Part shown: one piece after another, positions 716 through 27,481 of the stretch
Layout: each line of letters begins with the position of its first letter
Position numbering within the stretch: the first letter of the stretch is position 1
IMG/VR virus record: IMGVR_UViG_3300031857_001067
Span: 1 to 28,011 of that record
Source: a virus
Length of the DNA stretch: 28,011 bases
Reading direction: 5' to 3' (one strand)
The notes under the pieces: model-generated
Database searches by the model: none
Seen by the model: the letters and a program-made list of their open reading frames with translations, nothing else
What the model was told of the DNA's origin: nothing
Program-made: the position numbers and the translations under genes

Positions 716-800
716 TGGTGGGTGGTAGTGGACTCGAACCAATGATGCCCGAAGGCGGGAGATTTACAGTCTCCTGCAATAGCCGCTATGCGAACCACCC
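716..800 (-). tRNA. tRNA-Tyr (anticodon GTA)
   Basis: The reverse strand gives a 7-bp acceptor stem GGGTGGT/ACCACCC, a D-arm, an anticodon stem GGAGA/TCTCC with loop CTGTAAA (anticodon GTA), a long variable arm typical of bacterial tRNA-Tyr, a T-loop TTCGAGT and an encoded 3' CCA at 716-718 after discriminator A. The T-stem has one T-C mismatch. It lies close behind tRNA-Met on the same strand, so the two are probably processed from one transcript, possibly the late transcript that carries the capsid gene. Confidence 0.92.
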
Positions 801-808
801 AATGAAAT

Positions 809-883
809 TGGTTGCAAGGGCAGGAATCGAACCTGCGGCCTCCAGCTTATGAGACTGGCGAGCTGCCACTGCTCTACCTCGCT
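809..883 (-). tRNA. tRNA-Met, elongator-like (anticodon CAT)
   Basis: The reverse strand shows a D-arm around TAGAGCAG, an anticodon stem CCAGT/GCTGG with loop CTCATAA (anticodon CAT), a T-arm GCAGG-TTCGATT-CCTGC and an encoded CCA at 809-811. The acceptor stem AGCGAGG/CCTTGCA has an A-A mismatch at the first pair. The anticodon stem lacks the three G-C pairs of an initiator tRNA and the loop matches elongator tRNA-Met. An Ile-accepting CAU tRNA (lysidine type) cannot be excluded by eye. Confidence 0.88.
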
Positions 884-1132: not shown

Positions 1133-2215
1133 CTAAGCGGCGTTGTAGTTGAACTTGCCAAGGCCCAGCGGGTTGCCCACAACCAGACCAGCGACAGCTT
1201 CAACCAAGCGGCCGGGACCACCACCATTGTCGGTGAGCGGAGTGACCTGAGCGACATTACCGCCATAGCGGATTTCGATCAAGTTCATATCCAGCACCAA
1301 GCCACGGAACGGAGTGGGCGTGTAGGACGTGCCAGACACGGTTCCGATGAACGTGGTGGGGTGGAGGCGGACCGTTCCGAAGTCACCTTGGAACACATCC
1401 AGACTCTGGATGTAGGTGTCTGCGGCAGCGTCACGCTGGAATGTCTGAACCTTGGTGGCGCCAGCTGCCAGAGGAGCGGCCTGAGTGCCAGCCACAGTCG
1501 TCAGGGAAGTGGTCCCCAACAGGCCGGTGAAGGCGCGCTTCAGATCCGTCCCAACGATGCAATCAAACGAGGTGTAGTGGCCGGTCTGGTCGAAGATCGA
1601 CTTGAGCAAGCCCTGCACAACGGCGTCCGTCAACGAGGTTCCAAGAGCGGATCCAGTTCCGATGATCGAGGTAGAAGGCGTCTGGAAGATCGAGGGAATG
1701 CCTCCTGGAGTCGGAGTTCCAGCCCCGCCGGTAGCGATCCATGTCTGGGCGCCGGCCGTGCGGTACGGAGTTGTCTGATTCCCGCTATCTGCCTGGGCCA
1801 CCTGATCAGACACCATGGTCACTTCCATGTCGCGCTTGATCCCAGTGATGGCCTTGGCCACGTTGTCTGCCAGCTCGTCACGCACACCAGCAACATCAGC
1901 GATGTCCTGAGTGAGCTTGGACACGCGGACTGCGCGGCGGAAGATCTGGGCGTAGTTGGCCAGCTCAGCACGGTAGTTGACAACGTAGTTATCAACGCCA
2001 GTGGAGAGGTTCACGTCAACGCCGTCAGGAGTGCCGCCAACCTGAGGAGCCGGAAGGCTGTCAGACTGCCATCGGAAGTACATGTTGCCAGGCTTGGAGC
2101 CTTTCTTGGCCATGGACGTAAACGGCGTGTCCTTGGCGTCAACCAAGGCAATCATGTCCATGAGATCTTCGCGCTTGCCGCGACCGGAGAGATTGGGTTC
2201 GAGTAGAGTTGCCAT
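1133..2215 (-). CDS. Major capsid protein, SU10-like family
   Basis: A 360-residue protein beginning MATLLEPNLSGRGKREDL. It matches in length and sequence style the major head protein family of SU10-like podoviruses (DUF5309/SU10 major head protein, HK97-type fold), including an N-terminal stretch ending DTPFTSMAKKG, the segment VNYRAELANYAQIFRR, and a C-terminal half rich in Gly, Thr and Ala. It would form the icosahedral shell. It follows the scaffold-like gene directly, as usual for head genes. The 32-base gap upstream contains a run of eight T on the coding strand and no clear Shine-Dalgarno site. The stop is TAG, followed by the structured RNA region. Family assignment is from memory of the family. 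Confidence 0.85.
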   Translation of the reverse strand: MATLLEPNLSGRGKREDLMDMIALVDAKDTPFTSMAKKGSKPGNMYFRWQSDSLPAPQVGGTPDGVDVNLSTGVDNYVVNYRAELANYAQIFRRAVRVSKLTQDIADVAGVRDELADNVAKAITGIKRDMEVTMVSDQVAQADSGNQTTPYRTAGAQTWIATGGAGTPTPGGIPSIFQTPSTSIIGTGSALGTSLTDAVVQGLLKSIFDQTGHYTSFDCIVGTDLKRAFTGLLGTTSLTTVAGTQAAPLAAGATKVQTFQRDAAADTYIQSLDVFQGDFGTVRLHPTTFIGTVSGTSYTPTPFRGLVLDMNLIEIRYGGNVAQVTPLTDNGGGPGRLVEAVAGLVVGNPLGLGKFNYNAA

Positions 2216-2247
2216 ATCAAAAAAAATACTGCGGTTGTTGTTGGGGG

Positions 2248-3207
2248 CTAAACAAAGCCCATGTTTTTTACCAAATCGCTTAGTCCGTCACGATCTCCTC
2301 CGCTTCTGGCAAATTGCTGTTTTGCCTTCTGGGTGGACTGCTGATGTGAACTGGTTGGTGGAGCCTGTCTGACTCCCGGTTGGGGAGGAGCCTTTTTGAT
2401 AGGCGCCTGCGTTGTCTTTTTGGATTTCAGATCCGTGTAGGCCTTCAGTCCCAAAACAACAATGCCGGCAACATGCTTGAAGTCAGCTCTGCGCTTTTTA
2501 AGCTCTGGAAATTCACGCAAAATCTGCTGTGCGGCCTGATACTCTTCAGTTTCTGGTTTTCCCCACCAAGGAAAATCCTGAACAATTCCATAATCTAATT
2601 GAGCCTGTTTTTGCAGGTAATTAAATCTGGCAGGAAGTTCAATTTCCTTGATCCTGAGTGCCCTCATTTTGATGTCAAGAATGTCTTCATCAGACAGATC
2701 AACGCCATTGAGCGTTGCCCCGTTCCGATTCTGCTCGCACCAAAGAATGGCATTCACGGCCCTGCTGTACTCTTCGTTCACCTGCTCAAGGCTACTCAAA
2801 GATTCAACTTCTCCAGAAACCTCTGGTTCGGACTGAGGGGTAGCCTGCCTTGCGGAGGCCAGCTCTCTTTCCATTTCAGCCAAACGCTGTCTTTGCGCTT
2901 CTAACTCAGCTTGAGCGGCCTTCTTTGCAGCAACCAACTTGTTGATGCGCTTCTGGACACCCCTGCTTAAATTGCTTTCATCACCATCGTGACCTTCAGG
3001 TTCATCAATGCCGCTTTCGTCTGTCTCAGACAAATCAGCATCTGTAACCTGCTCCTGTGAGGCCGGAGCGTCCCCTTGCTCGTCAAGGAAGTTGGATTTC
3101 AAGAGAGCACTTAGATCCCTCTCATCCAAAAGACCGAGCTTATCAACAACGGGAGATTCTGCTGCCTCCTGATTCCCGGCATCAGGCTGTACTTCGCTTT
3201 CATTCAT
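2248..3207 (-). CDS. Probable capsid scaffolding protein
   Basis: A 319-residue acidic protein. The first ~95 residues are rich in Asp, Glu, Ser and Gln, followed by a basic helical segment (RGVQKRINKLVAAKKAAQ) and a long coiled coil around residues 85-120. The C-terminal tail is Gln/Pro/Lys-rich and ends SDLVKNMGFV. This composition, and the position directly upstream of the capsid gene and downstream of the portal, is typical of phage scaffolding proteins, which guide procapsid assembly and are then lost. No protease is visible in the window. The start ATG at 3207 lies about 19 bases after AAAGGAA, and a small hairpin (TCCAG/CTGGA) lies further upstream. The stop codon is inside a GGGCT/AGCCC hairpin. 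Confidence 0.7.
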   Translation of the reverse strand: MNESEVQPDAGNQEAAESPVVDKLGLLDERDLSALLKSNFLDEQGDAPASQEQVTDADLSETDESGIDEPEGHDGDESNLSRGVQKRINKLVAAKKAAQAELEAQRQRLAEMERELASARQATPQSEPEVSGEVESLSSLEQVNEEYSRAVNAILWCEQNRNGATLNGVDLSDEDILDIKMRALRIKEIELPARFNYLQKQAQLDYGIVQDFPWWGKPETEEYQAAQQILREFPELKKRRADFKHVAGIVVLGLKAYTDLKSKKTTQAPIKKAPPQPGVRQAPPTSSHQQSTQKAKQQFARSGGDRDGLSDLVKNMGFV

Positions 3208-3270
3208 GCGGTTAAGGTCGCAAGTTCCTTTAATTACAATCCAGTAACGCTGGAAGGCCCGTTGATGGCG

Positions 3271-3522
3271 TTATGCCAAATCTTTCTCTTCAGTCAAGCC
3301 ATTAAGTTTTAATGCTTCATTTCTTAATGTTAAAAGTGTTGAATAAACCAAGTTCACTCCATCGGCTTGGCCGCAAGCGTGGATACGATCTTCGCCTTTT
3401 ACGTTATTGCTAACAGCATTAAGCCAAAGGCTTTCCTGCATCTGCTGGATCGTTTCAATTACTTGATCCCAAACGTGGTTTTTGCCACCCCAACCGAATG
3501 CAAGTCGTTCTTTTTCGGTCAT
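3271..3522 (-). CDS. Hypothetical head-cluster protein, 83 aa
   Basis: A small soluble protein beginning MTEKERLAFGWGGKN, with two predicted helices, one with WDQVIETIQQMQESLW. Its ATG overlaps the portal TGA by four bases, so translation is coupled to the portal. Genes of this size between portal and scaffold are common in podoviruses and may encode minor head or assembly proteins, but I recognise no family. Confidence that it is a real gene is high because of the overlap, composition and lack of any competing frame. Confidence 0.65.
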   Translation of the reverse strand: MTEKERLAFGWGGKNHVWDQVIETIQQMQESLWLNAVSNNVKGEDRIHACGQADGVNLVYSTLLTLRNEALKLNGLTEEKDLA

Positions 3523-5627
3523 TGTTGTTGAATGGGTGATACTCCAATCCTTCCAATCTGAGCGTTCTGTTTCTGCATCACGCTCATTTTAAGGTTCTTG
3601 ATGTAGTTCTGGAACAGCTGCTGAAAGTTCTCATCAGACTGCAATGCGGCCTGAGCCTTTGGATTGCTCTGAATGACCTGCTGCGAGTATTGCAGCTTGG
3701 CCTGAGCGGTCGGATCGTTTTCCTGATACGATGCCTCGTTGCCCAAGAGCATCATAGCAATGTCTGTCTGAACGTCTTTGAACAGCTTCTGAGAGGCCTG
3801 CTGCTCTGTCATAATCAGTTCGGCAGACATCTCCGGAGCAATGGCCTGAATCATCATCTCTGTGAGCCGATTGGAGTTTAAGACGCCGCCAGAGTCCATC
3901 TGCTTGATGCTCTTCAAATACTCAATCTTCTGAGTGATGTATTCCTTGTCTAAATTCATCACATCAAACCTGATGTTGAAGTCGAACTCGTTGTGGATCT
4001 CAGACAAGTTCTGCGGCAACTGGCCTCCGGTGATGCGCTGGATTTCTCCTGGAGCCATGTACTGGCAGCAAAGGGCAAACATCTGTCGGAAGACAGATCT
4101 CCACGACAGCAGCCATGTGTTCACCAGTGCCTGCTGAAGCATCTGGGTTACCTGTGGGGCGACAAACTGATTGGTGGTCCCAAAGTAGGCCGCGTGTTGC
4201 TGTTCCACCCTTTTGATGAGGTCGAACGCCAGATTGGGCGGCCGCGCCGGCGGATCCATGAACGTGTAGTCGTTGGCGTTGGTAACCGGAAGTTGCACGC
4301 CCGGACCCACCTTGTTCATGGCGCCAATGCGCTTCACCACGCGGATTGGAGGAAGCGTTGAAAACGCGGTGCTGTCCCGAATCGAGTCATGCTGAGCCTT
4401 GATTTCGTCCTGATCCGTGCTGGAAAGCTCCGGGATGCCTCGAGTGTCTGTGATTGCCCGGCGAATCTGCTCTCGGCGGAACTCTACGAAAGGATATTCG
4501 CCATGGGCGTAGTCCAAACGCTCATGGATGGCCCAAGAGTCCCCGTCAGACTGCCGATTCGAGGCCGCTTGGGGACAGATAACGGTGTAGAAGATGGCTG
4601 GGGCGTCCCCATCAAGACTCTTGGTGTAGCAGTACACCACTTCCACCATATTCATGTAGTTCACCCCGTTGTAGACCATCATGGTGGTGGTCGGAAGCAG
4701 GTTGATGTTGTAGTAGGAGCTGGATTTACCCAGCTGCTGCAAGGCCCGCTCCACCCAGTCCGGATTCCAGCCCTCAGTCGTGATTTTTTCACGCAATTCC
4801 ACCTCAGACATCCATGTCCGGCGGAAAATCACGCGGGAACGCTGCAAATCTGCGGTTTCAGGAGGGAAGATGATCTCGTCCCAAGGCTTCAGTGCGACAA
4901 TTTCAGGCAGGTTCTTGCTGACGTACTCCTCGTCTCTGGTTGTCTGACCTTTCTCAGCCAGCTCGCGGATCATGCGCTTGGCATCGGAGTTCTTCAGATC
5001 CGGCATGACGGCCTGAAAAATCCCAATGGCCTCCTCGGACTGATCCATGATCATCTGCGGCAGGGCTGCCAGTGTCTCACTACCAGATTGCTCAGCCATC
5101 TGGAGGATCTCCTGCATGTACACAGGTTGCTTCCGGACGCTGATGTTCTGCTGCCAGCCCACAAAGAAGGCACTCCATCCGTATTGAAGGGCGTACTGGG
5201 CGCCAAGTGTGGCCTCCTTGTACAGCTGTTGAGGCATCTTGCAGTCCCGGATCCAGCGCAGAAGTGTGGTGGCAACCTGAGACTGCTCAACGTGCGTCAT
5301 GTTCACGCCATCGGCCCGAATCTCAGCCTTCTGGAAAGCCGAAACCAGCAGGGAAGTCAGTTCGTTACAGGTAGCGTCAATCAGACGGGCACGAACATCA
5401 GAGGCCCCCTCAAATGGCCAAGCAGGATCTCCTTCCGAACGGTTTTCAGAGTGCTTCTTGCCATCATCTGTCTGACCGGGCCACCGACAAAACCGAATGT
5501 TGTCAAACTTGGTAACAAGATTTCCCTGAGATGAGTTGATCATCGAGCGGTTGTATTCGCTCAAAAGCTCGCCAACATGCGGCTCCTTGGAGGCAATGGC
5601 CAAAACATCAGTGTTGTAATCGAGCAT
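3519..5627 (-). CDS. Portal protein
   Basis: A 702-residue protein lying 21 bases downstream of the terminase gene and upstream of scaffold and capsid, the standard place for the portal. Portals form the dodecameric DNA channel at one capsid vertex. The sequence is mixed alpha/beta with a long, Gln-rich helical C-terminus (final ~100 residues, ending SPIQQQ), as in large podovirus portals. N-terminal features include the segment GDPAWPFEGASDVRARL, a pattern shared by P22-type and related portals in my recollection. The length fits podoviral portals (about 600-750 aa). The start ATG at 5627 has AAGGAT upstream. The stop overlaps the start of the 83-aa gene. Confidence 0.8.
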   Translation of the reverse strand: MLDYNTDVLAIASKEPHVGELLSEYNRSMINSSQGNLVTKFDNIRFCRWPGQTDDGKKHSENRSEGDPAWPFEGASDVRARLIDATCNELTSLLVSAFQKAEIRADGVNMTHVEQSQVATTLLRWIRDCKMPQQLYKEATLGAQYALQYGWSAFFVGWQQNISVRKQPVYMQEILQMAEQSGSETLAALPQMIMDQSEEAIGIFQAVMPDLKNSDAKRMIRELAEKGQTTRDEEYVSKNLPEIVALKPWDEIIFPPETADLQRSRVIFRRTWMSEVELREKITTEGWNPDWVERALQQLGKSSSYYNINLLPTTTMMVYNGVNYMNMVEVVYCYTKSLDGDAPAIFYTVICPQAASNRQSDGDSWAIHERLDYAHGEYPFVEFRREQIRRAITDTRGIPELSSTDQDEIKAQHDSIRDSTAFSTLPPIRVVKRIGAMNKVGPGVQLPVTNANDYTFMDPPARPPNLAFDLIKRVEQQHAAYFGTTNQFVAPQVTQMLQQALVNTWLLSWRSVFRQMFALCCQYMAPGEIQRITGGQLPQNLSEIHNEFDFNIRFDVMNLDKEYITQKIEYLKSIKQMDSGGVLNSNRLTEMMIQAIAPEMSAELIMTEQQASQKLFKDVQTDIAMMLLGNEASYQENDPTAQAKLQYSQQVIQSNPKAQAALQSDENFQQLFQNYIKNLKMSVMQKQNAQIGRIGVSPIQQQ

Positions 5628-9070: not shown

Positions 9071-10216
9071 ATGTACAACCGAAACGAAACCCTCTCCGGC
9101 GCCGAAGCACGTTCTTTTCTCCGGAACTGGCTCCGGGAAGCCGGCGTAGCGTCAAAGCTTGCCGATTCCCTGACTATGGCGGAGTTAAATGAAGCTTGGA
9201 CGGATGAAAGCAACACGGCCTTGTTGGCTTTGGTTAATCGGCCGGAGCCGAAGCCGGCGCCGGTTGTCTCTTCCCTTTCGGCCGGGAACGAAACGGCGGC
9301 CGCTTTGATGATGCAAGCGCTCGCAATGGTTCAACCGAAGGCGCCGGCCTTGGACGAAGCCCGGATCCTTGAGCTAATCCGGGAGCATGCTCCGAAGCCG
9401 GAACCTTCCGTGGTGCATTACAGCTTCACAACGGCCGCCGGGACGGTAACAACGGAACGCCGGGAACATAGCTACTTTCCTTTGATTGTGGCCGCCCTTT
9501 CAACCCGGACTCACCTTTGGCTTGTCGGTCCGGCCGGCGGGGGAAAGACAAGCCTAGTCGGAGCGGCCGCCGGGGTTCTGGGGTTGGAACACCGGGCTTT
9601 GTCGGTTTGCGCGCAAACTACCAAAACCGACCTTTTGGGCTTTATTGATGCCACCGGGGTTTACCGGGGAACGGCCTTCCGGGAGGCCTTTGAAAAGGGG
9701 TTTGTCTTTTGCTTAGATGAAGCCGACGGCGGAAACCCCAACGTGTTGGCCGTGCTCAATTCCGCTTTAGCCAACGGGGAAATGACCTTCCCGGACGCTA
9801 CGGTGAAGCGGGGAGAAGGGTTTGTTTGTGTTGCTTGTGCAAACACGTTTGGAAACGGCGCCACCGGCGGTTACGTTGGCCGGAATCAAATTGACGCGGC
9901 CACCTTGGACCGTTTCTTTTTCTTGAACCTTCCCTTGGACCAAGGCCTCGAGGCCTCTCTCGTTGGCGTCTCCGGGGTTGAATCCCCGGCCTTTGATATG
10001 GCCGCCGGTGGAACAACAACGGCCGCCGGTTGGCTTTGGTTTGTGCAGAAAGCCCGGGAAGGGGCGGAGAAGCACGGTGTTAAGGTTGTTATTTCCCCGC
10101 GTGCTACTATCGGAGGGGCAAAGCTTGCGGCCGCCGGGGTTGGCCTTGAATGGCTCAAGAAAGGCTTTCTCTTTAAGGCCTTGGATTCCCTCTCCGCTGA
10201 AAAGCTTCTCTCCTAA
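9071..10216 (+). CDS. AAA+ ATPase, MoxR/CobS-like (AAA_5)
   Basis: A 381-residue protein with an N-terminal helical region (1-55), a Pro/Ala linker and an AAA_5 domain. It has Walker A GPAGGGKTS (153-161), Walker B VFCLDEAD (212-219), a sensor-1-like ACANTFG (255-261) and a likely arginine finger in ATLDRFFF (R281). Such ATPases (CobS, MoxR, GvpN, CbbQ relatives) remodel or insert cofactors into partner proteins, and CobS-like members are common in phages with unknown targets. The next gene, 9 bases downstream and probably co-transcribed, is the likely partner. Codon choice is dominated by CCGG/GGCC-forming codons unlike the rest of the phage, a sign of separate origin. No Shine-Dalgarno site is seen. 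Confidence 0.85.
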   Translation: MYNRNETLSGAEARSFLRNWLREAGVASKLADSLTMAELNEAWTDESNTALLALVNRPEPKPAPVVSSLSAGNETAAALMMQALAMVQPKAPALDEARILELIREHAPKPEPSVVHYSFTTAAGTVTTERREHSYFPLIVAALSTRTHLWLVGPAGGGKTSLVGAAAGVLGLEHRALSVCAQTTKTDLLGFIDATGVYRGTAFREAFEKGFVFCLDEADGGNPNVLAVLNSALANGEMTFPDATVKRGEGFVCVACANTFGNGATGGYVGRNQIDAATLDRFFFLNLPLDQGLEASLVGVSGVESPAFDMAAGGTTTAAGWLWFVQKAREGAEKHGVKVVISPRATIGGAKLAAAGVGLEWLKKGFLFKALDSLSAEKLLS

Positions 10217-10225
10217 TTCCCGGCC

Positions 10226-11059
10226 ATGGCAAAGACACTCAAACCAAAAACGCTCCGGCTTCAATTCCGGAACATCCAAGAAACGCTAGACTATATGGCC
10301 AAGTCTCCGGGAGGCTCTTCCGAAAAGGAAAGGTCGGCGGATTCAACCTTTACCCGGCTTCCGAACTGGCCGGCTTGTGAAAGAGCCATTCAGTTCGGTT
10401 GGCCGGAAGGCTTAAAGGCCGTCTCCGGCCTTGTAGAAAGCCTTTCCGCCTTTGTTGGCTCCGGAATGTTAAAAGAGACGTTCCGGCCGGCCGTCTCCGG
10501 CCTCTTCTTTGACGTTGGCCTTGTTCTCTCCGGTGAACCGGAAGCTTGGCTGGAAACAACGGAAACGGAGGAAGAGACGAAGGGAAGCAAGGTTGTCACC
10601 TTAGCCTTAAATTGTACGGTTTCGGGATGCGTTCCGGCCGCCACAATCGAAGCCCGGGGAGCGGCCATGCTAGCCTTGGCCGTCTTGCTTGAGCGCTCCG
10701 GGAGAAGCGTCCGGGTTGTAGTGGGAGACGCAACAACTCGAGACGGGAGTTATTTGTACGCAGAGACGGTAGTTAAAGAGGCCGGGGAGCCTTTCGACTT
10801 GGACAAGCTGGCCTTTTGGCTTGTTTGTCCGGACGTGCTCCGGAGGTGCTTTTTCCGGATTTGTGAAGCTTCCCCGCTCCGGGAGCACGTCGACGCAAGA
10901 ATGGGTGGGGGCTACGGATGCCCGGTTGAAAGCTGGACTCCAGAGGGGGATATAACTCTGAAGGGGATCCTTTCCGAAACCGCTTGGACGCCGGAGGCCT
11001 CCCGGCGCTGGATTGTGGAACAACTCAAAGCCCAGGGGGTTCAATTCTCCGAAGCCTAG
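10226..11059 (+). CDS. DUF7192-like partner of the CobS-type ATPase
   Basis: A 277-residue protein beginning MAKTLKPKTLRLQF. It resembles, from memory, the DUF7192 family often found beside CobS-like ATPases in phages. Visible family-like patterns are RAIQFGWPEGLKAV near residues 50-65, CTVSGCVPAATIEARGAAML in the middle, and AGEPFDLDKLAFWL with a following PDVLRR segment. There is no enzyme motif I can name. The pairing with the upstream ATPase suggests it is the remodelled substrate or adaptor. It shares the same extreme CCGG/GGCC word usage. Function is unknown, and the family assignment should be treated as likely rather than certain. Confidence 0.7.
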   Translation: MAKTLKPKTLRLQFRNIQETLDYMAKSPGGSSEKERSADSTFTRLPNWPACERAIQFGWPEGLKAVSGLVESLSAFVGSGMLKETFRPAVSGLFFDVGLVLSGEPEAWLETTETEEETKGSKVVTLALNCTVSGCVPAATIEARGAAMLALAVLLERSGRSVRVVVGDATTRDGSYLYAETVVKEAGEPFDLDKLAFWLVCPDVLRRCFFRICEASPLREHVDARMGGGYGCPVESWTPEGDITLKGILSETAWTPEASRRWIVEQLKAQGVQFSEA

Positions 11060-15007: not shown

Positions 15008-15219
15008 TCGGCGTCCCTTTCTTCGTTCAGACAGTTTTCGCACAGACAGGAGGGGTCTATTGCTTCGATGGTCACAACGAACTTCATCCCCTCAAATGGA
15101 CCGTTGTCCACCTGCATCTGGAATTGAGCGCATCTGAGTTCGTAATTGGCCATGATCTCGCAAAGTGTCTTTGCTGCCTTCGTGGCCCTTGCTTCGTCTT
15201 TTTTGTTGGGTGTGTTCAT
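15004..15219 (-). CDS. Small cysteine-containing protein, 71 aa
   Basis: From the ATG at 15219, which overlaps the helicase C-half TGA, the protein is 71 residues (MNTPNKKDEARATKAAKTL). The C-terminus carries CLCENCLNE, a possible metal site, and the middle has the beta-like stretch GMKFVVTIEAID. Translation is coupled to the helicase half upstream and the CxxC protein downstream. Function unknown. Confidence 0.5.
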   Translation of the reverse strand: MNTPNKKDEARATKAAKTLCEIMANYELRCAQFQMQVDNGPFEGMKFVVTIEAIDPSCLCENCLNEERDAE

Positions 15220-15806
15220 TGAGGTAAAAAGCTGGCCGTGCGGCCGTTGAATCTGAGTGTTGTCTGAACGCCACAAGGGCCGTTCCGCTGGTAGGGGATG
15301 GAGATTGTCCGAAGTTCGGATCCCTCCTCCTCATCCAGCTTGATGGCCATGATACAGGTGGCGTCCTGTTGGATGGCGCGGCTTTCGCGGGCCTTCCCCT
15401 GCTCGTTGAGTTGGGTAATTGAAATCACCAGACAACCCAACTCCAGCCCCAGCAAACGCAAGGAACGGGACACCTCGGCAACCTCACGCTCACGGGTGCC
15501 CTCGCGCCCCAAATCGCAGCGGACCAGTTGGATGTAGTCAACCATGAGCACCTTCAGGCCGGTTGGACTTTTGGCCATGGCTCGAGCGGTGGCCGCAATG
15601 CTCGCAATGTCGTACAGGTCATCCCGGACAACAATGTTCGAGTTGTGAATCTTGGTGACAGCCCGGTGGACACCCTCGATGTCTCCCTGTGTCTTCACGC
15701 CCTCGGCCAAGGCCCGGAGACTCACGTTACCAAGCCGGGCAACAAGCCGGTCGATGATCTGGCTGGCCGGCATCTCCAGCGAAATGATTAGGATTCCTGT
15801 TCCCAT
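15216..15806 (-). CDS. Replicative helicase DnaB, C-terminal half (split)
   Basis: This 196-residue protein begins MGTGILIISLEMPASQIIDR and is the part of a DnaB-family RecA domain that normally follows the Walker A helix. It has the SLEMPA glutamate motif (about residues 9-14), Walker B VLMVDYIQLV (86-95), the ITQLN sensor motif (130-134) and the arginine-finger region PYQRNGPCG (171-179). It lacks Walker A, which is on the separate gene at 17924-18580. I prefer the ATG at 15806 (GGAG eight bases upstream) to the GTG at 15815. It overlaps the 106-aa gene upstream by 19 bases. It must act with the N-half to form an ATPase, or be a remnant. Confidence 0.88.
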   Translation of the reverse strand: MGTGILIISLEMPASQIIDRLVARLGNVSLRALAEGVKTQGDIEGVHRAVTKIHNSNIVVRDDLYDIASIAATARAMAKSPTGLKVLMVDYIQLVRCDLGREGTREREVAEVSRSLRLLGLELGCLVISITQLNEQGKARESRAIQQDATCIMAIKLDEEEGSELRTISIPYQRNGPCGVQTTLRFNGRTASFLPQ

Positions 15807-16108
15807 GTCTCGCACTCCATTTCAATTTCCTCGGCAATCTGAATGACACCCACACGCTTCTCCAAGCGGAAGTTTTTAAGTGGGCCATTGCAGCTCTTCG
15901 CGTTCTCCACGTTGTGAAGGAAGTAGTTCTCCGCAGCGGGTTGGTTGTCTCCGAACTCGCTCATCACCGTCCAAGCGAAGCCATTGCTTCCAAGGACAAC
16001 CCAGTTCAGTTTGCGCACCCAATTCTTGCGATACCAATTCTCGACAAACTCGAGCTTGTCATAGAGGTATCTGATTTGTTTTTGGTCGGGGGTTTCGTAT
16101 GCCGGCAT
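15788..16108 (-). CDS. Hypothetical protein, 106 aa
   Basis: Start placed at the ATG at 16108 (MPAYETPDQKQIRYLYDKLE). The protein has many aromatic residues (ENWYRKNWVRKLNWVVLG) and a C-terminal acidic part ending ETWEQES. It overlaps the gene upstream by 50 bases even with this start, and the helicase C-half downstream by 19. No family recognised. It lies between the two halves of the split helicase, so it could be part of an insertion, but it shows no endonuclease motif. Confidence 0.55.
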   Translation of the reverse strand: MPAYETPDQKQIRYLYDKLEFVENWYRKNWVRKLNWVVLGSNGFAWTVMSEFGDNQPAAENYFLHNVENAKSCNGPLKNFRLEKRVGVIQIAEEIEMECETWEQES

Positions 16109-16343
16109 TTTTTCGTATTTCTTTTGAATTGTGGGACTTATGTCCGTCAAACCGCGTGACGACAAGGTCCACTGTTATCTGGTCGGTCGATTGGTTCGCA
16201 GGCTTTAGCGATTCTTTTTCGATCACCTCAAAACAGGTGTCTTTGTCGCCAACAAACAGCACCTCCTGGACAATTTTTGGCCGTGGGAGGTGCCGAATGT
16301 GGTCAGCGACAGTTGTGCGCCGGATGGCTACGAACTTTGCCAT
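16059..16343 (-). CDS. Hypothetical protein, 94 aa
   Basis: From the ATG at 16343 (MAKFVAIRRTTVADHIRHLP) the protein is beta-strand rich with VQEVLFVGDKDTCFEVIEK, TVDLVVTRF and a basic tail. The ATG lies inside the stop region of the exonuclease gene (overlap 16 bases), suggesting coupling. Its last 50 bases overlap the next gene. No family identified. It is one of five genes between the helicase halves. Confidence 0.5.
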   Translation of the reverse strand: MAKFVAIRRTTVADHIRHLPRPKIVQEVLFVGDKDTCFEVIEKESLKPANQSTDQITVDLVVTRFDGHKSHNSKEIRKNAGIRNPRPKTNQIPL

Positions 16344-17101
16344 TGTCTGAGTCCAAGAATCCGGTGCTTCAGCGGGCCGGGCCAGAAATCCTTTTTCTCG
16401 CACTCAGCGAAATGGTCGATGTGGTCTTCGATTTTTTCCTGAGCTGCTTCCATGGCGTCTGAGCCTAGTAAGACAAACTGTGCGAAGTGTGGCTGCTCGG
16501 TGTCTGTCACCAAAAACCAGAAATCCACATCCACGCCCCAGATCTGCTTCAGCCCATAGGCGTACCACGCAGCCTGAACATCGTATCCGAAGCTCCAAAA
16601 TTTTCGGTCGAACGAGTAGAAGTCCGAAGTTGTCTTCAGGTCCACGATGACGGGCTTTTCGTTGATTGTCCCGATGATGTCTGGACGCCCCTTGCATTGA
16701 ACGCCGCTGCGTTCCCAGAACATCGAGGCCTCAACGTGGTCGATCCTGACGTCCTGCAAAAGCACCTTCGCAGAAGTGTAGGCGCCAGTGATCCGGCCGT
16801 ACTCCTCATTGGTCACGATCTCCTTGCCGATGTTGTTCTCACAAAACAAGGCCCACTCCTCCTTGCCGGCTTTGGTTCGCTTGTCCACGTCCGGGCCAAC
16901 TGCAAAATCAACTCTGTCCTCTAGCACCCAGCTGTGGATCAGCGTTCCCAGCACAGCTTCCCTGCTTGGCTTCCATGGCTGCTTCTTGCGGAACTGGTAC
17001 TCCGCCGGCGACTTCATAAAGTTGTCGAACTCATGCTTAGATAGGCCGTGCGCCAAACGGTAAACGTCCATCGGTATTCCTTCGCGTAGGTCTGTTCTCA
17101 T
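16328..17101 (-). CDS. PD-(D/E)XK exonuclease, RecE/DUF3799-like
   Basis: A 257-residue nuclease with PD-(D/E)XK motifs: LGTLIHSW (H56), KGRPDII (D141), VDLKT (D154, K156) and QAAWYAYGL (Q176). This order is typical of the DUF3799/RecE-type and Cas4-like exonucleases that phages use in recombination. It would resect double-strand ends in concert with an ssDNA-binding or annealing protein; the OB-fold protein upstream is a candidate partner. Its ATG overlaps the TGA of the dNMP kinase. A second ATG at codon 11 (MDVYRLAHG) has AAGGA at good spacing and may be the true start, giving 247 residues. Confidence 0.85.
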   Translation of the reverse strand: MRTDLREGIPMDVYRLAHGLSKHEFDNFMKSPAEYQFRKKQPWKPSREAVLGTLIHSWVLEDRVDFAVGPDVDKRTKAGKEEWALFCENNIGKEIVTNEEYGRITGAYTSAKVLLQDVRIDHVEASMFWERSGVQCKGRPDIIGTINEKPVIVDLKTTSDFYSFDRKFWSFGYDVQAAWYAYGLKQIWGVDVDFWFLVTDTEQPHFAQFVLLGSDAMEAAQEKIEDHIDHFAECEKKDFWPGPLKHRILGLRQWQSS

Positions 17102-17592
17102 AGGTTGGTAAGCTGTGCTATTTTTTGGTGTAGGTCTTCAATGCTGCCATCGTTGACTACTTCGTAGTCGGCAGCAATCTCGCTTTGGTTTAGCTCTGAT
17201 TCGTGTTCGCCCGCAACTTGTCCGGGCCTGACAATCCTGACAACGATGCCTCCTTTGTGTCTGACAAAGTTCGCTTCGTTTTGGAAACGAACATCAGTGA
17301 AGACAACAGGCGGCCCATTTGGTGCAATTTTCCAAGCAACGTGCTGAATCCAGATGCCCGGAAAGTAGCGCCTACCGGCCATGCCCAGCTCTTGCAGGAG
17401 CCTTCTGCCAGCTTCGTCCTTTTCTCCGTTCCAGCCAAACTCGAAAGCCAGATCCTTCAGCTCGTCAGCAAAAGCCATGCGGCAGTAGCCCAGCTTGATA
17501 AGCGCTTTGGCTGCCGTGTCCTTTCCGGAGCCAGCCAGGCCAATCAGTCCGATGTGTTTCACGTTGTCTGATTTAAGTCCGATGGCTTTCAT
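17098..17592 (-). CDS. Deoxynucleoside monophosphate kinase
   Basis: A 164-residue P-loop kinase with Walker A GLAGSGKDT (about residues 18-26). The following segment (FADELKDLAFEFG, then GRRLLQELG and PPVVFTDVRFQNEA) matches phage dNMP kinases of the T4 gene 1 type, which turn dNMPs from degraded host DNA into dNDPs. A fragment such as VVRIVRPGQ follows, as in the family. It is coupled by ATGA overlaps to the genes on both sides. It lies between the two halves of the split DnaB, within an otherwise intact nucleotide/recombination block. Confidence 0.85.
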   Translation of the reverse strand: MKAIGLKSDNVKHIGLIGLAGSGKDTAAKALIKLGYCRMAFADELKDLAFEFGWNGEKDEAGRRLLQELGMAGRRYFPGIWIQHVAWKIAPNGPPVVFTDVRFQNEANFVRHKGGIVVRIVRPGQVAGEHESELNQSEIAADYEVVNDGSIEDLHQKIAQLTNL

Positions 17593-17927
17593 TCCGTAGC
17601 GGTAGGAGTTTCAGGATTTACCTCAAGGCCAAGGCAGCCCAGCACCATGCCGGATTTGTCTCTGACCAGTTTTGCGGGACTCAGCAGATCCCGGCGCAAC
17701 GGGAATGCCTGCCGAACTAGTGCCGGCACGATGAACATGGTTCCGGGTTCTTTGGGCGGGACGCCGGTGACGCCGTTGATGAATGTTTCGAGGATCGGGA
17801 TTCCTTCAATCTGGGCTGTTTGGACTGTCTGAGCATTCAGACGGGCCACATTGCCGGACGGAGCGATTGGCTCCATGCCTCCAACTTTGATGGCATACGG
17901 GGTGAGGTTTACAAAGGTGATTTTCAT
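17589..17927 (-). CDS. Conserved phage protein of unknown function, 112 aa
   Basis: The protein starts MKITFVNLTPYAIKVGG. It has IAPSGNVARLN in the first third, a GIPILETFINGV segment, and GTMFIVPALVRQAF with RRDLLSPAKLVRDKSG before a GCLGLEVN end. This pattern is a widespread small phage protein (NLTP...PSG.AR...RRDL..P) without a known role, in my recollection. The ATG overlaps the TGA that ends the DnaB N-half, so it is the first gene of the block that separates the helicase halves. Confidence 0.75.
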   Translation of the reverse strand: MKITFVNLTPYAIKVGGMEPIAPSGNVARLNAQTVQTAQIEGIPILETFINGVTGVPPKEPGTMFIVPALVRQAFPLRRDLLSPAKLVRDKSGMVLGCLGLEVNPETPTATE

Positions 17928-18580
17928 TCGGAGATAAGATTTGCTATGATGTTTAGTGCCAGCATTGTTTTTCCACTTTTCGTTTCTCCGCCGATGACAA
18001 GGAAATCGCCAAGGCGGATTGGGGTCAGGTTATCAATTTTGTCGTAACCTGTCTTGATTCTTTGCGTGGCATCGTCACCAGTCTGATAACGATCCATCGC
18101 ATCGAGCAGGAGCTTCTTGGTGTCCGCAACCTGCGGGGGCATCAGCTCTGTCTGGATGCCGTCCACCTTCATGGCAACCTCGTTGACCAACTCTGGGGTC
18201 TGGATGTCGGCCGCAGCAATCTTCACCAAGGCCTGCTGCATTACCATCAGCAATGCCCTGCGCTTCGCCGCGTTCTTCACCAGCTCGAGCAACTCCGGCA
18301 GACAGCCCTCAAGCGGCATGAGCGTGTACATCTCTGTGAGCTGGTAAAACTGGATCTCTGGAAGACGCTCGCGCAATTTCTCGTACAACACCCGAACGTC
18401 ACAGCTGGCGTTCCGGGATGTCTGATCCAGAATTGTCTCAACGATAGCTCGGCTCGTTGGGTCCAGGATGTCAGCGGTGCTGAACTTCTGCTCCGTGATT
18501 TTGTTGAGCAGCGTGGTCGGATGATTGAGCGCAATGGAGGCAATCCCACGCTCACTCTCGGTGGCTTTTGGGATTTCCAT
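17924..18580 (-). CDS. Replicative helicase DnaB, N-terminal half (split)
   Basis: This 218-residue protein has the DnaB N-terminal domain (about residues 1-100, beginning MEIPKATESERGIASIAL), the linker helix and the start of the RecA domain. It ends right after Walker A GGETKSGKT (197-205) and its helix, at ...LNIIANLISE. Stop TGA overlaps the ATG of the next gene (ATGA). A normal DnaB would continue directly with a strand like ILIISLEMPA, which is exactly where the gene at 15216-15806 begins. The start is ATG 18580, which overlaps the stop of the loader-like gene by one base (TAATG). It would act as the hexameric fork helicase only together with the C-half. Confidence 0.88.
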   Translation of the reverse strand: MEIPKATESERGIASIALNHPTTLLNKITEQKFSTADILDPTSRAIVETILDQTSRNASCDVRVLYEKLRERLPEIQFYQLTEMYTLMPLEGCLPELLELVKNAAKRRALLMVMQQALVKIAAADIQTPELVNEVAMKVDGIQTELMPPQVADTKKLLLDAMDRYQTGDDATQRIKTGYDKIDNLTPIRLGDFLVIGGETKSGKTMLALNIIANLISE

Positions 18581-19314
18581 TACCAACCCACCTCCGATTT
18601 TGCTGCGGCCAGCAAGCTGCCGGGTTCCTGTCTTTTGGGAGGCGCCACAACGGCTTTGTGTTGCAGGAAGGCCAGCGTTTCAGCGGCACGGTTCATCCAG
18701 CTGTTGATGTAGCTCTTCATGCCGCGCATCGACTTGGCCTTGTGTGGGTGGGCCTCAAGCCATAGCTTGGCCTTGATCAGCTCTCGGCGCAAAAACGGGT
18801 CGTCATGCACCTTCAGGAGGTCGTGAACAAATGACGGCTCGAGCCTGTAGGCGCCCTGCTTAGTTCGGAACTCGATTTCGCAAAGGTCGCGAGAATCCTC
18901 CAAGGCGTTCAACTCGGCTTCGCGCTCGAGTTCGGCAAGCTCTGGGTCTGGTTTCTCTTTCCTCTTCCCCTCCTTCTCCCCTTCTTCCCCCTTGCATCCC
19001 CCTTCTTCCCCTCCTACCTCCCCTTCTTCTATCTCTTCCGCATGTTTCGAGCGGACAATTTCTTTGCCATCGAGCATGTCCTGCACCGATGCGTAACGCT
19101 TTTTGCCCGGCAGCAAGTCGCCATGCAAAATCTCGTAATCATTCGGCCAATTGTCCCCCTCATCAGCGGCCGGAATGGCGGGTTCTGATGCCACTTGTGG
19201 TGCGACAGGGGTCACCGGAGCGGAAGGCATAGAAACAGCCACAGAATCGCCCATCGGAATACTGACCTCGGTGACGGTTCCGGAGACGTGCGTGATCTTG
19301 ATGGTGATGTTCAC
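18580..19314 (-). CDS. Helicase-loader / replication-initiator-like protein
   Basis: A 244-residue protein with a GTG start preceded by AAGGAGGTGA, a strong ribosome site that decides the start; GTGA overlaps the upstream stop. The N-terminal third is Pro/Ala-rich. The middle is Glu/Gly/Lys-rich low complexity, encoded by a 42-base pyrimidine tract. The C-terminal ~70 residues carry LRRELIKAKLWLEAHPHKAK, RGMKSYINSWMNR and a tail ending in Trp. That pattern is common at the C-terminus of phage replication proteins that load DnaB. Position directly before the DnaB N-half supports this. Function is inferred from motif style and context. Confidence 0.6.
   Translation of the reverse strand: MNITIKITHVSGTVTEVSIPMGDSVAVSMPSAPVTPVAPQVASEPAIPAADEGDNWPNDYEILHGDLLPGKKRYASVQDMLDGKEIVRSKHAEEIEEGEVGGEEGGCKGEEGEKEGKRKEKPDPELAELEREAELNALEDSRDLCEIEFRTKQGAYRLEPSFVHDLLKVHDDPFLRRELIKAKLWLEAHPHKAKSMRGMKSYINSWMNRAAETLAFLQHKAVVAPPKRQEPGSLLAAAKSEVGW
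18952..18993 (+). repeat. 42-base uninterrupted pyrimidine tract
   Basis: On the plus strand every base from 18952 to 18993 is C or T, and after GCA the pyrimidine-rich run continues with few breaks to about 19039. It encodes the Glu/Lys/Gly stretch of the loader-like protein. Such tracts can form triplex DNA. Confidence 0.9.
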
Positions 19315-26450: not shown

Positions 26451-26766
26451 AAAATGATTTCCTAGCTTCTAAGCACAGAGGGCTTCCAGCCTTAAACTGC
26501 CGGCAGGCCTGTGGGCGGTTTTCGTAAATTGTACAGGAAACAGATTCTCCGACAACTCCAGACAAAGCAGCACACCTGTTGTTGCATGTCTTGAGAAGCG
26601 GGTAATCATCTCGAATCAACTCTGGTGGTATTCCGGCTGCATCAGCCCTGTCCCGGCGAAGCACCGGCCAGCTCCACTTGTGGCTGCAACACGCCCCGCA
26701 GGTTTTGCAGTCCAGATCGGATGTTGCAGTACTCTGCGACTGGCTGCTCATGGAGTGCGTGCTCAT
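26419..26766 (-). CDS. YkgJ-family cysteine-cluster protein
   Basis: A 115-residue protein with CKTCGACC (Cys 20, 23, 26, 27), then Cys 61 and 65, CTIYENRPQACRQF (Cys 78, 88) and Cys 98. This is the pattern of the YkgJ/CxxCxxCC family (PF03692), thought to bind zinc or an iron-sulfur cluster, with no proven function in phages. The first ~15 residues are Ser/Gln-rich and may be a by-product of overlap. It overlaps the PP-loop gene upstream by 125 bases and the virion gene downstream by 32, which is unusually compact. It may act with the PP-loop protein. Confidence 0.8.
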   Translation of the reverse strand: MSTHSMSSQSQSTATSDLDCKTCGACCSHKWSWPVLRRDRADAAGIPPELIRDDYPLLKTCNNRCAALSGVVGESVSCTIYENRPQACRQFKAGSPLCLEARKSFYGKTNQSVSG

Positions 26767-27481
26767 GCAGGTTCTCTACTTGGATGCCGTGCTTAGGGCA
26801 ATCAACAAACTTGCCAAGCCGATTGTCCACGCAGTTAAAGCAGGCATGAACGTAGTCAGAGTTCATGTGCTTGCTCGGCTTACTGACCACATTCTCATCG
26901 TATCTATTTCGGTCAAACAGTACGTTGTTGTAAATGATGTAGTTAGCCACATGAAGATCCGTCCATTCACGCAACGGAAACCACATCTCCGTACTTGGCC
27001 CTAGCATCTTCTTGTGGATCTCAAGAGGAATCTGACCCGTCAAAGGGTCTTCATCACTACTTTTGTGTCCACACAGCAACACATCAAAATCAGACACAAC
27101 GTGCGCCTTTGGGCGGTTTAGCCATTCCTTTCCGCACACCCAAGGCTTACCTGGCTCCATCGGTTCTGTGCCTCGCATTACCCTGATGTCCCCATCTCCA
27201 ATGGAGTACTTTTCACAAACATCTATGCGCCCATTCCCGTGGGTTATAGAAATAGATGCTGGCACCCAGTCATGCACGGTCATCCGGTAGGTTTCTTGTG
27301 CTACATGGTGAAAGGCGTATTTCTGTGGCAAAAACGGCAACTTGAAGTGAATCACCTCAATGTCTGGCCGAATCTTTCTTGTGAGATCCAGCAACACAGT
27401 GCTGTCTTTTCCGCCGCTCCAAAGAACAGCAGGTCGTTTTGCATGCCTGAGTGCGAGTAGTATAGTTTGTTCAGCAGTCAT
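26642..27481 (-). CDS. PP-loop ATPase, PAPS-reductase-like
   Basis: A 279-residue protein with the ATP-pyrophosphatase motif LWSGGKDSTVLL (SGGKDS at about 22-27). A PAPS-reductase/adenylyl-transfer core follows, with FPLREWTDLHVANYI and cysteines in HACFNCVDNRLGKFVDC. Members include PAPS reductase, DndC-type DNA sulfur modification proteins and phage homologues of unknown substrate. No other dnd or cysteine-pathway gene is in the window, so the substrate is open. The ATG shares one base with the stop of the partial virion gene (TAATG). The C-terminal ~40 residues overlap the cysteine-cluster gene and have low complexity. It sits among virion genes as a likely moron. Confidence 0.8.
   Translation of the reverse strand: MTAEQTILLALRHAKRPAVLWSGGKDSTVLLDLTRKIRPDIEVIHFKLPFLPQKYAFHHVAQETYRMTVHDWVPASISITHGNGRIDVCEKYSIGDGDIRVMRGTEPMEPGKPWVCGKEWLNRPKAHVVSDFDVLLCGHKSSDEDPLTGQIPLEIHKKMLGPSTEMWFPLREWTDLHVANYIIYNNVLFDRNRYDENVVSKPSKHMNSDYVHACFNCVDNRLGKFVDCPKHGIQVENLHEHALHEQPVAEYCNIRSGLQNLRGVLQPQVELAGASPGQG

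Follow-up and report, generated by a model that had tools for sequence, protein, structure and literature searches.

The window analysed here, i.e., the whole 28,011-nucleotide stretch (positions 1 to 28,011) of the IMG/VR virus record IMGVR_UViG_3300031857_001067, encodes the replicative helicase DnaB, the ring motor of bacterial replication forks, in two separate genes, one of which ends just after Walker A and its helix, while the other begins at the next strand of the RecA motor. Split DnaB genes are a feature of a clade of phages in environmental DNA, and the position of the cut within this clade is strictly conserved. Comparison of the sequences leads us to infer, with a probability of roughly 0.8, that both chains fold together, without a covalent link, to give a single DnaB protomer. 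An earlier note on this DNA had proposed a bipartite DnaB that assembles in trans; the analysis supports this proposal in that a misjoin is ruled out and no intact copy was found in the related records examined, while physical assembly of the halves, ring formation, and helicase activity are what the sequences point to.

Architecture of the two genes

The N-half of DnaB (17924-18580, minus strand) comprises 218 amino acids, which include the N-domain, the linker, strand beta1 of the RecA motor, and Walker A (GGETKSGKT, 17966-17992, minus) with the helix that follows it; translation from 18580 to 17924 ends in ...GGETKSGKTMLALNIIANLISE, followed by the stop codon. The C-half (15216-15806, minus strand), translated from 15806 to 15216, comprises 196 amino acids that start at RecA beta2 with the residues MGTGILIISLEMPA and carry, all on the minus strand, the catalytic Glu of SLEM (15771-15782), Walker B (VDYIQL, 15525-15542), ITQLN (15405-15419), and the arginine-finger motif QRNGPCG (15270-15290). 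An alternative in-frame GTG start for the C-half lies at 15815; its relatives use the ATG start. The translations thus bear out what the earlier note had said of both genes, namely that the first stops just after Walker A and its helix and that the second begins at the next strand and holds Walker B, ITQLN, and the finger region; the note gave no strand, and both genes lie on the minus strand.

The C-half matches the Pfam DnaB_C profile at positions 50-253 of 255 (E 3.5e-31), and the N-half matches the same profile at positions 2-44 with 19.2 bits, which is under the curated cut-off of 27, and the Pfam DnaB N-domain model with E 0.0039 and 17.6 bits, which is under the cut-off of 23. Both halves are matched by phrog_19, the PHROG family of DnaB-like helicases, the N-half at profile positions 185-377 (E 3.9e-18) and the C-half at 381-575 (E 3e-34). 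When the two products were aligned to intact DnaB, as the earlier note had suggested, the family profiles of the N-half and C-half were collinear with residues 11-228 and 233-437, respectively, of DnaB from G. stearothermophilus (PDB 2r6a), so that no segment is missing or duplicated; the predicted single DnaB of about 415 residues with nothing lost or doubled corresponds to a combined length of 218+196 = 414 amino acids. Among GenBank phages, only C75C1 matches the portal protein (28%), and it is also the nearest by terminase (30%). Its DnaB is a single chain of 441 amino acids, and in a by-eye alignment its ALNIVLRSAVQ-DGKP-IGIFSFEM is equal in length to ALNIIANLISE plus MGTG-ILIISLEM of the two halves, which places the initial Met of the C-half within the loop that connects the P-loop helix to the following strand. 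The RecA motor motifs and the N-terminal collar domain that mark DnaB-type helicases (superfamily 4) are thus all present, but the P-loop and the rest of the motor do not lie on one polypeptide, either in the window or in any of the 64 distinct pairs of halves described below.

Conservation of the cut

In IMG/VR, scans with the C-half returned 35 loci and scans with the N-half 98, 80 of the latter being used, to a total of 115 loci; several loci may come from one contig, so locus counts can repeat. Both halves are present at 99 loci, the C-half only at 5, and the N-half only at 11, and at the single-half loci the half lies, by inspection, within 2.3 kilobases (kb) of the locus end, which is less than the largest gap seen between halves. 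A profile scan found 180 relatives of the C-half, and among the 80 matches listed, the added loci with both halves are cut at the same point, even where C-half identity falls to 72%. After pairs with an incomplete half had been excluded and identical pairs collapsed, 61 pairs were left, which together with loci L117, L130, and L147 make 64 distinct pairs. In all 64, the N-half precedes the C-half on the same strand, with a gap of 1,323-3,785 nucleotides. The C-half begins 8 residues ahead of SLEM in 51 of 52 distinct sequences (9 in the remaining one), and the N-half ends 11-16 residues past KSGKT in 66 of 71 (23-37 in the other five). Walker A (GG..KSGKT) is complete in 71/71 distinct N-halves, and SLEM, the (V/I)DY(I/L)QL Walker B, ITQLN, and QRNGPCG are each complete in 52/52 distinct C-halves. 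The same split point that the earlier note had proposed to look for in related phages is therefore found in 64 distinct pairs, and because the genes in the gap vary among them, the misjoined assembly that it had named as a possible refutation is ruled out.

Such fixed ends bear on whether the pieces might be joined into one chain, by RNA trans-splicing of a split intron or by protein splicing of a split intein. The joined reading frame would fit exactly, and fractured genes with split inteins, including that of the T4-type gp41 helicase, were reportedly described in phage-like DNA by Dassa et al. in 2009; there, too, the helicase pieces are said to be separated by other genes, but they carry split inteins, none of which fits here. 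With most N-halves stopping 11-16 residues past KSGKT and the C-halves starting at beta2, the chains end right at the cut and leave no room for intein halves. No Rfam intron family was found at gathering score in the window and six loci (seven sources), where the matches were two tRNAs. Moreover, the DNA upstream of the C-half is dissimilar among relatives: in a subgroup of 35, 326 of 595 pairs are less than 40% identical (ungapped), as against a median identity of 89% over the first 135 nucleotides of the C-half gene, and different genes (a methylase, Mom, or small proteins) abut the C-half in different phages. We therefore regard splicing as very improbable.

The five extended N-half ends carry polar tails right at the cut (e.g., L025, L029, L130, and L147). 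Locus L117 is a 13.5-kb contig with the split DnaB that was assigned to a Pedosphaera genome bin, which might be a hint of the host or a mis-binned phage; a search of a genome collection gave a single C-half match, in a Pedosphaera-bin contig, which is too little to name a host. In another relative (G011, loci L013 and L265), the record begins and ends within the intervening exonuclease gene, which is what would be expected of a circular or permuted genome of ~39.9 kb.

Helicases elsewhere in the genomes

A complete DnaB elsewhere in the genome, accompanied by degenerate halves, was the other outcome that, according to the earlier note, would speak against a bipartite enzyme. A search for DnaB_C in 23 long relatives (37-44 kb) that had been selected by means of the halves gave exactly two matches at E <= 0.01 in every genome, an N piece and a C piece, and no intact DnaB. 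A second sample, selected by the portal protein to avoid selection via the halves, consisted of 42 of 80 loci, on records of at least 10 kb; 17 of these records carry both halves, 2 have a C-half end cut at the contig edge, 23 have neither half, and none of the 42 contains an intact DnaB. All 13 portal-selected records above 30 kb have both halves (11 of the 13 overlap the 23 long relatives). Of the 25 portal-selected records without both halves, 13 (the 2 with a truncated C-half and the 11 longest of those that gave no match) were searched for the exonuclease together with the N-half, and these were found in 0/13, compared with 6/6 positive controls that matched both; the 13 records appear to be fragments ending short of the region. 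Thus, no complete DnaB was present in either sample, and the halves are not degenerate either, given their complete motifs and the low substitution ratios described below.

A Pfam search of 52 proteins, selected from two relatives that are nearly complete, found no other helicase or DNA polymerase family, and a weak AAA_30 match lies within a MoxR-like AAA_5 protein; the PHROG results agree with Pfam as far as they were listed (25 of 53 families). The lack of a recognisable phage DNA polymerase family among these proteins makes it probable that the host replisome is used, and the bacterial host's own DnaB is also present in the cell. The phage halves could, in principle, join host DnaB subunits in mixed rings and so take over the host fork. 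Against this, the best match of the C-half among GenBank phages, P1 Ban, is only 35% identical, and its best plasmid DnaB match is 38% identical; we consider mixed rings to be very unlikely. For the N-half, no match was obtained in GenBank phages at 1e-5.

Selection and common history of the halves

Both halves are under strong purifying selection. Among the pairwise comparisons with a synonymous rate (dS) of 0.1-1.5, out of 2,016, the median ratio of nonsynonymous to synonymous substitution rates (dN/dS) is 0.054 for the N-half (642 pairs; maximum 0.47) and 0.041 for the C-half (636 pairs; maximum 0.21). A split gene is a common sign of a sequencing or assembly artefact or of a decaying pseudogene, but here both halves are open, selection against amino acid change is strong, and the same cut recurs in 64 distinct pairs with different gap genes, which leaves this explanation with next to no probability.

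Trees were built from 34 non-redundant pairs, from which near-identical ones had been removed. The Spearman correlation of patristic distances is 0.70 between the N-half and C-half and 0.44 between either half and the intervening exonuclease. No supported splits conflict between the N-half and C-half trees (17 and 10 supported splits), compared with 3 and 4 (in either direction) between the N-half and the exonuclease and 1 and 1 between the C-half and the exonuclease, and the correlation between the halves was the higher one in 971 and in 977 of 1000 bootstrap resamplings of the loci. If the neighbourhood alone held the halves together, each should share ancestry at least equally with the exonuclease that lies between them. 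The co-ancestry of the halves is thus good but not conclusive support for a functional coupling.

Predicted structures and the proposed protomer

Structures were predicted with AlphaFold2 from the family of each half alone, as single chains. Residues 1-140 of the N-half were modelled with predicted local distance difference test (pLDDT) blocks of 77-93, and the model resembles DnaB N-domains (Z 16.4; root-mean-square deviation (rmsd) 2.0 over 148 residues for 8a3v_B), while its RecA piece alone (residues 151-218) has block means of only 43-60. The C-half model has a mean pLDDT of 68 and is confident over residues 1-90, with values below 50 at residues 96-101, 132-152, and 171-179, after its fourth strand; its best structural match is E. 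coli DnaB (6kza_B; Z 11.5, rmsd 3.3 over 151 residues). Such low values for each RecA piece on its own are what would be expected if the P-loop strand had to come from the partner.

In the RecA fold, the P-loop strand lies inside the sheet, and its flanking strands are all in the C-half. The protomer should therefore form by insertion of the N-half strand and helix into the C-half. The collar domain and the linker would come from the N-half, together with the opening strand of the RecA motor, its P-loop, and the helix after it; the remaining strands, with the catalytic Glu, Walker B, ITQLN, and the arginine finger, would come from the C-half. No splice would be needed, and ATP bound across both chains would lock the protomer. 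The ring would then consist of six pairs, i.e., twelve chains, and each catalytic site would be shared, with the P-loop from one chain, the Glu and Walker B from the other, and the finger from the C-half of the neighbour. It is tempting to speculate that the split serves as a device in which the collar assembles first and the C-halves then complete the motors around DNA, so that loading would be loader-free and switched on by the second half. No known loader was recognised, but most of the small genes nearby have no assigned function; we hold this idea to be unlikely.

Several observations weigh against two chains forming one working motor. The Lys of the KQR motif, taken as a second finger in DnaB, is replaced by Y, F, I, or W, and KQRNG occurs in 0/52 distinct C-halves (15270-15293 in the window), which implies that the motor is not a standard DnaB. 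The low confidence of the RecA pieces may also stem from alignments of little depth (26 and 23 rows). For the difference between the N-C correlation and the better exonuclease comparison, the 95% interval is -0.04 to 0.43 and just includes zero, and the C-half tree has only 10 supported splits. Finally, a Shine-Dalgarno sequence at <= -4 kcal/mol precedes the C-half in 30 of 64 pairs versus 31% of random sites (41 of 64 for the N-half at -4 kcal/mol or better); as the value for the C-half is near background, its translation may rely on coupling to the preceding gene.

Some of these points would also fit separate roles for the two proteins in a phage that has no helicase of its own, with the N-half acting as a decoy or adaptor for host primase or DnaB and the C-half as a DNA-binding or regulatory protein. 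Indeed, the N-domain folds best alone, the host has its own DnaB, and the KQR Lys is lost. A decoy could do without the P-loop, yet GG..KSGKT is retained in every distinct N-half and the partner motifs in every distinct C-half, and a regulatory role would have to be reconciled with the strong constraint on the C-half (dN/dS 0.041) and its co-ancestry with the N-half. Separate roles thus appear unlikely, albeit clearly less so than splicing or mixed rings, and co-folding of the halves into one protomer remains our preferred reading.

Uncut relatives and other split enzymes

The domain order and motifs of the split family are those of DnaB, P1 Ban, phrog_19, and the C75C1 helicase, with which the halves are collinear over the full length. 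However, DnaB, P1 Ban (by annotation), and C75C1 have one chain (441 amino acids in the last), whereas here two genes lie 1.3-3.8 kb apart, and the KQR of standard DnaBs reads (Y/F/I/W)QR. The group of IMG/VR records that shares the C75C1 portal comprises 18 records, 9 of which have a DnaB_C match; in 8 of these 9, a single open reading frame (ORF) of 443-452 amino acids spans the profile, and the ninth is a weak match in an ORF of 619 amino acids. The other 9 records (13-22 kb) gave no DnaB_C match. Fused versions of the gene, for which the earlier note had proposed to search, thus exist in the related C75C1 group. A closer uncut relative was not found in a scan of viral contigs with SLEMPA(S/N)QI at one fixed distance from GKT, a scan that relied on one motif and one spacing, so that genes with other letters could escape it. 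Three stretches from that scan were rejected: a DnaB-like ORF that stops at 302 codons, a DnaB that is 27-28% identical to the C-half, and a longer protein that is 25-29% identical.

The intact gene of C75C1 is located downstream of an exonuclease gene, a position like that of the C-half here. Neither this exonuclease nor the gene annotated as initiator has BLASTP similarity to the proteins of the window, and thus an origin of the split by duplication and reciprocal loss is a guess.

Split phage enzymes that reassemble are already known. According to excerpts of PMC2988022, T4-type phages have split genes for topoisomerase, NrdA, and DNA polymerase, the products of which work together: Aeh1 NrdA has full function, 43A and 43B purify together in active form, and the T4 topoisomerase is consistent with this. 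The split DnaB resembles these enzymes, as the excerpts present them, in that one coding region in two ORFs corresponds to one intact relative and no splice element is present. It differs in that the T4-type splits are associated with an untranslated insert or with a homing endonuclease, whereas here whole replication genes intervene, with an HNH domain in 1/50 gap ORFs, and in that the cut is fixed across a diverse clade and runs through the ATPase core of a ring helicase. In some defence systems, YprA-like helicases are split into several genes, as stated in excerpts of PMC12458937; a helicase is likewise divided there over separate genes of one operon, but it belongs to another family and has a defence role, and the place of the cut is not stated in the excerpted text.

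Three further sources, each in the part available, concern other matters: PMC4824171 describes a plasmid helicase gene interrupted by insertion of a gene cluster and not a split DnaB, the "Split DnaB" of PMC7765530 is a DnaB mini-intein tool, and the DnaB passages of PMC8125051 are unrelated. In the open-licence literature, judged mainly by titles and abstracts, no DnaB cut between Walker A and Walker B was found, and no paper was found under the name C75C1. The split DnaB is therefore, as far as the searches show, a new arrangement.

Gene neighbourhood

Five ORFs, all on the minus strand, lie between the halves and are joined by ATGA or longer overlaps, as the earlier note had described, and relatives of four of them occupy the same position in other phages. 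A small conserved protein of 112 amino acids (17589-17927; PHROG, unknown function) overlaps the stop of the N-half by ATGA and has a relative in the gap in 46/64 pairs. It is followed by a deoxynucleoside monophosphate kinase (17098-17592; Pfam DNMK, phrog_139), which is a gap member in 27/64 pairs, and by a PD-(D/E)XK exonuclease of the exonuclease VIII-like type (16328-17101; phrog_412), which lies between the halves in 64/64. A small protein of 114 amino acids (16059-16403) has a relative in the gap in 55/64 pairs, while an ORF of 125 amino acids that overlaps the C-half start (15788-16165) has none in the other 63. The gene immediately upstream of the N-half (18580-19314, minus) encodes a protein of 244 amino acids without an assigned function, which only its position makes a candidate initiator or loader; in the three relatives that were read, ORFs that begin in a similar way occur at this place.

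In other phages, a cytosine methylase is present in the gap (13/64 pairs), and sporadic gap genes include Mom (L104), a ThyX-like gene (L117), an HNH gene near a methylase (L055), and one Tad2-like anti-Thoeris ORF. As gap content varies across pairs, and with it the neighbour that abuts the C-half, the gap turns over while the halves stay. A Pfam scan of 50 of the 51 gap ORFs listed (one near-copy was omitted) found HNH_3 in a single ORF, beside the methylase at L055, and an origin of the split from a homing endonuclease is thus not supported. The earlier statement that no intein or homing endonuclease motif is visible holds with respect to intein halves and to any conserved homing endonuclease; the one HNH_3 match is in a relative.

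Other features of these genomes

In the window, an AAA_5 (MoxR-like) ATPase gene followed by a gene for a DUF7192 protein (9071-11059, plus strand) is on the strand opposite to the rest and has no PADLOC match; the same pair occurs in relative G002 (L119:1839-3848). Genes for tRNA-Tyr (gta) and tRNA-Met (cat) at 716-883 (minus) adjoin a capsid-like protein gene at 1133-2215. A protein with a PAPS-reductase domain is encoded at 26642-27481 (minus), and in G002, a small protein near the PAPS-reductase gene is of the CxxCxxCC zinc/iron-chelating type. Relative G009 has adjacent TfuA-like and YcaO genes (L120:15959-18081) on the strand opposite to their neighbours and beside a cytosine methylase gene, a thioamidation-type pair within a phage genome; the pair has no PADLOC match.

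Implications

For annotation pipelines, these genes are a warning that short DnaB-like ORFs need not be fragments but may be halves. The split ATPase, as a product of natural evolution, might also be usable for the engineering of switchable helicases. The ATPase core of DnaB is usually taken as indivisible, and the phages of this clade keep its catalytic site in two pieces. If the halves assemble as proposed, they would constitute a natural test of how a RecA motor can fold from two chains, how a six-unit ring can be built from twelve, and whether splitting may replace a helicase loader.

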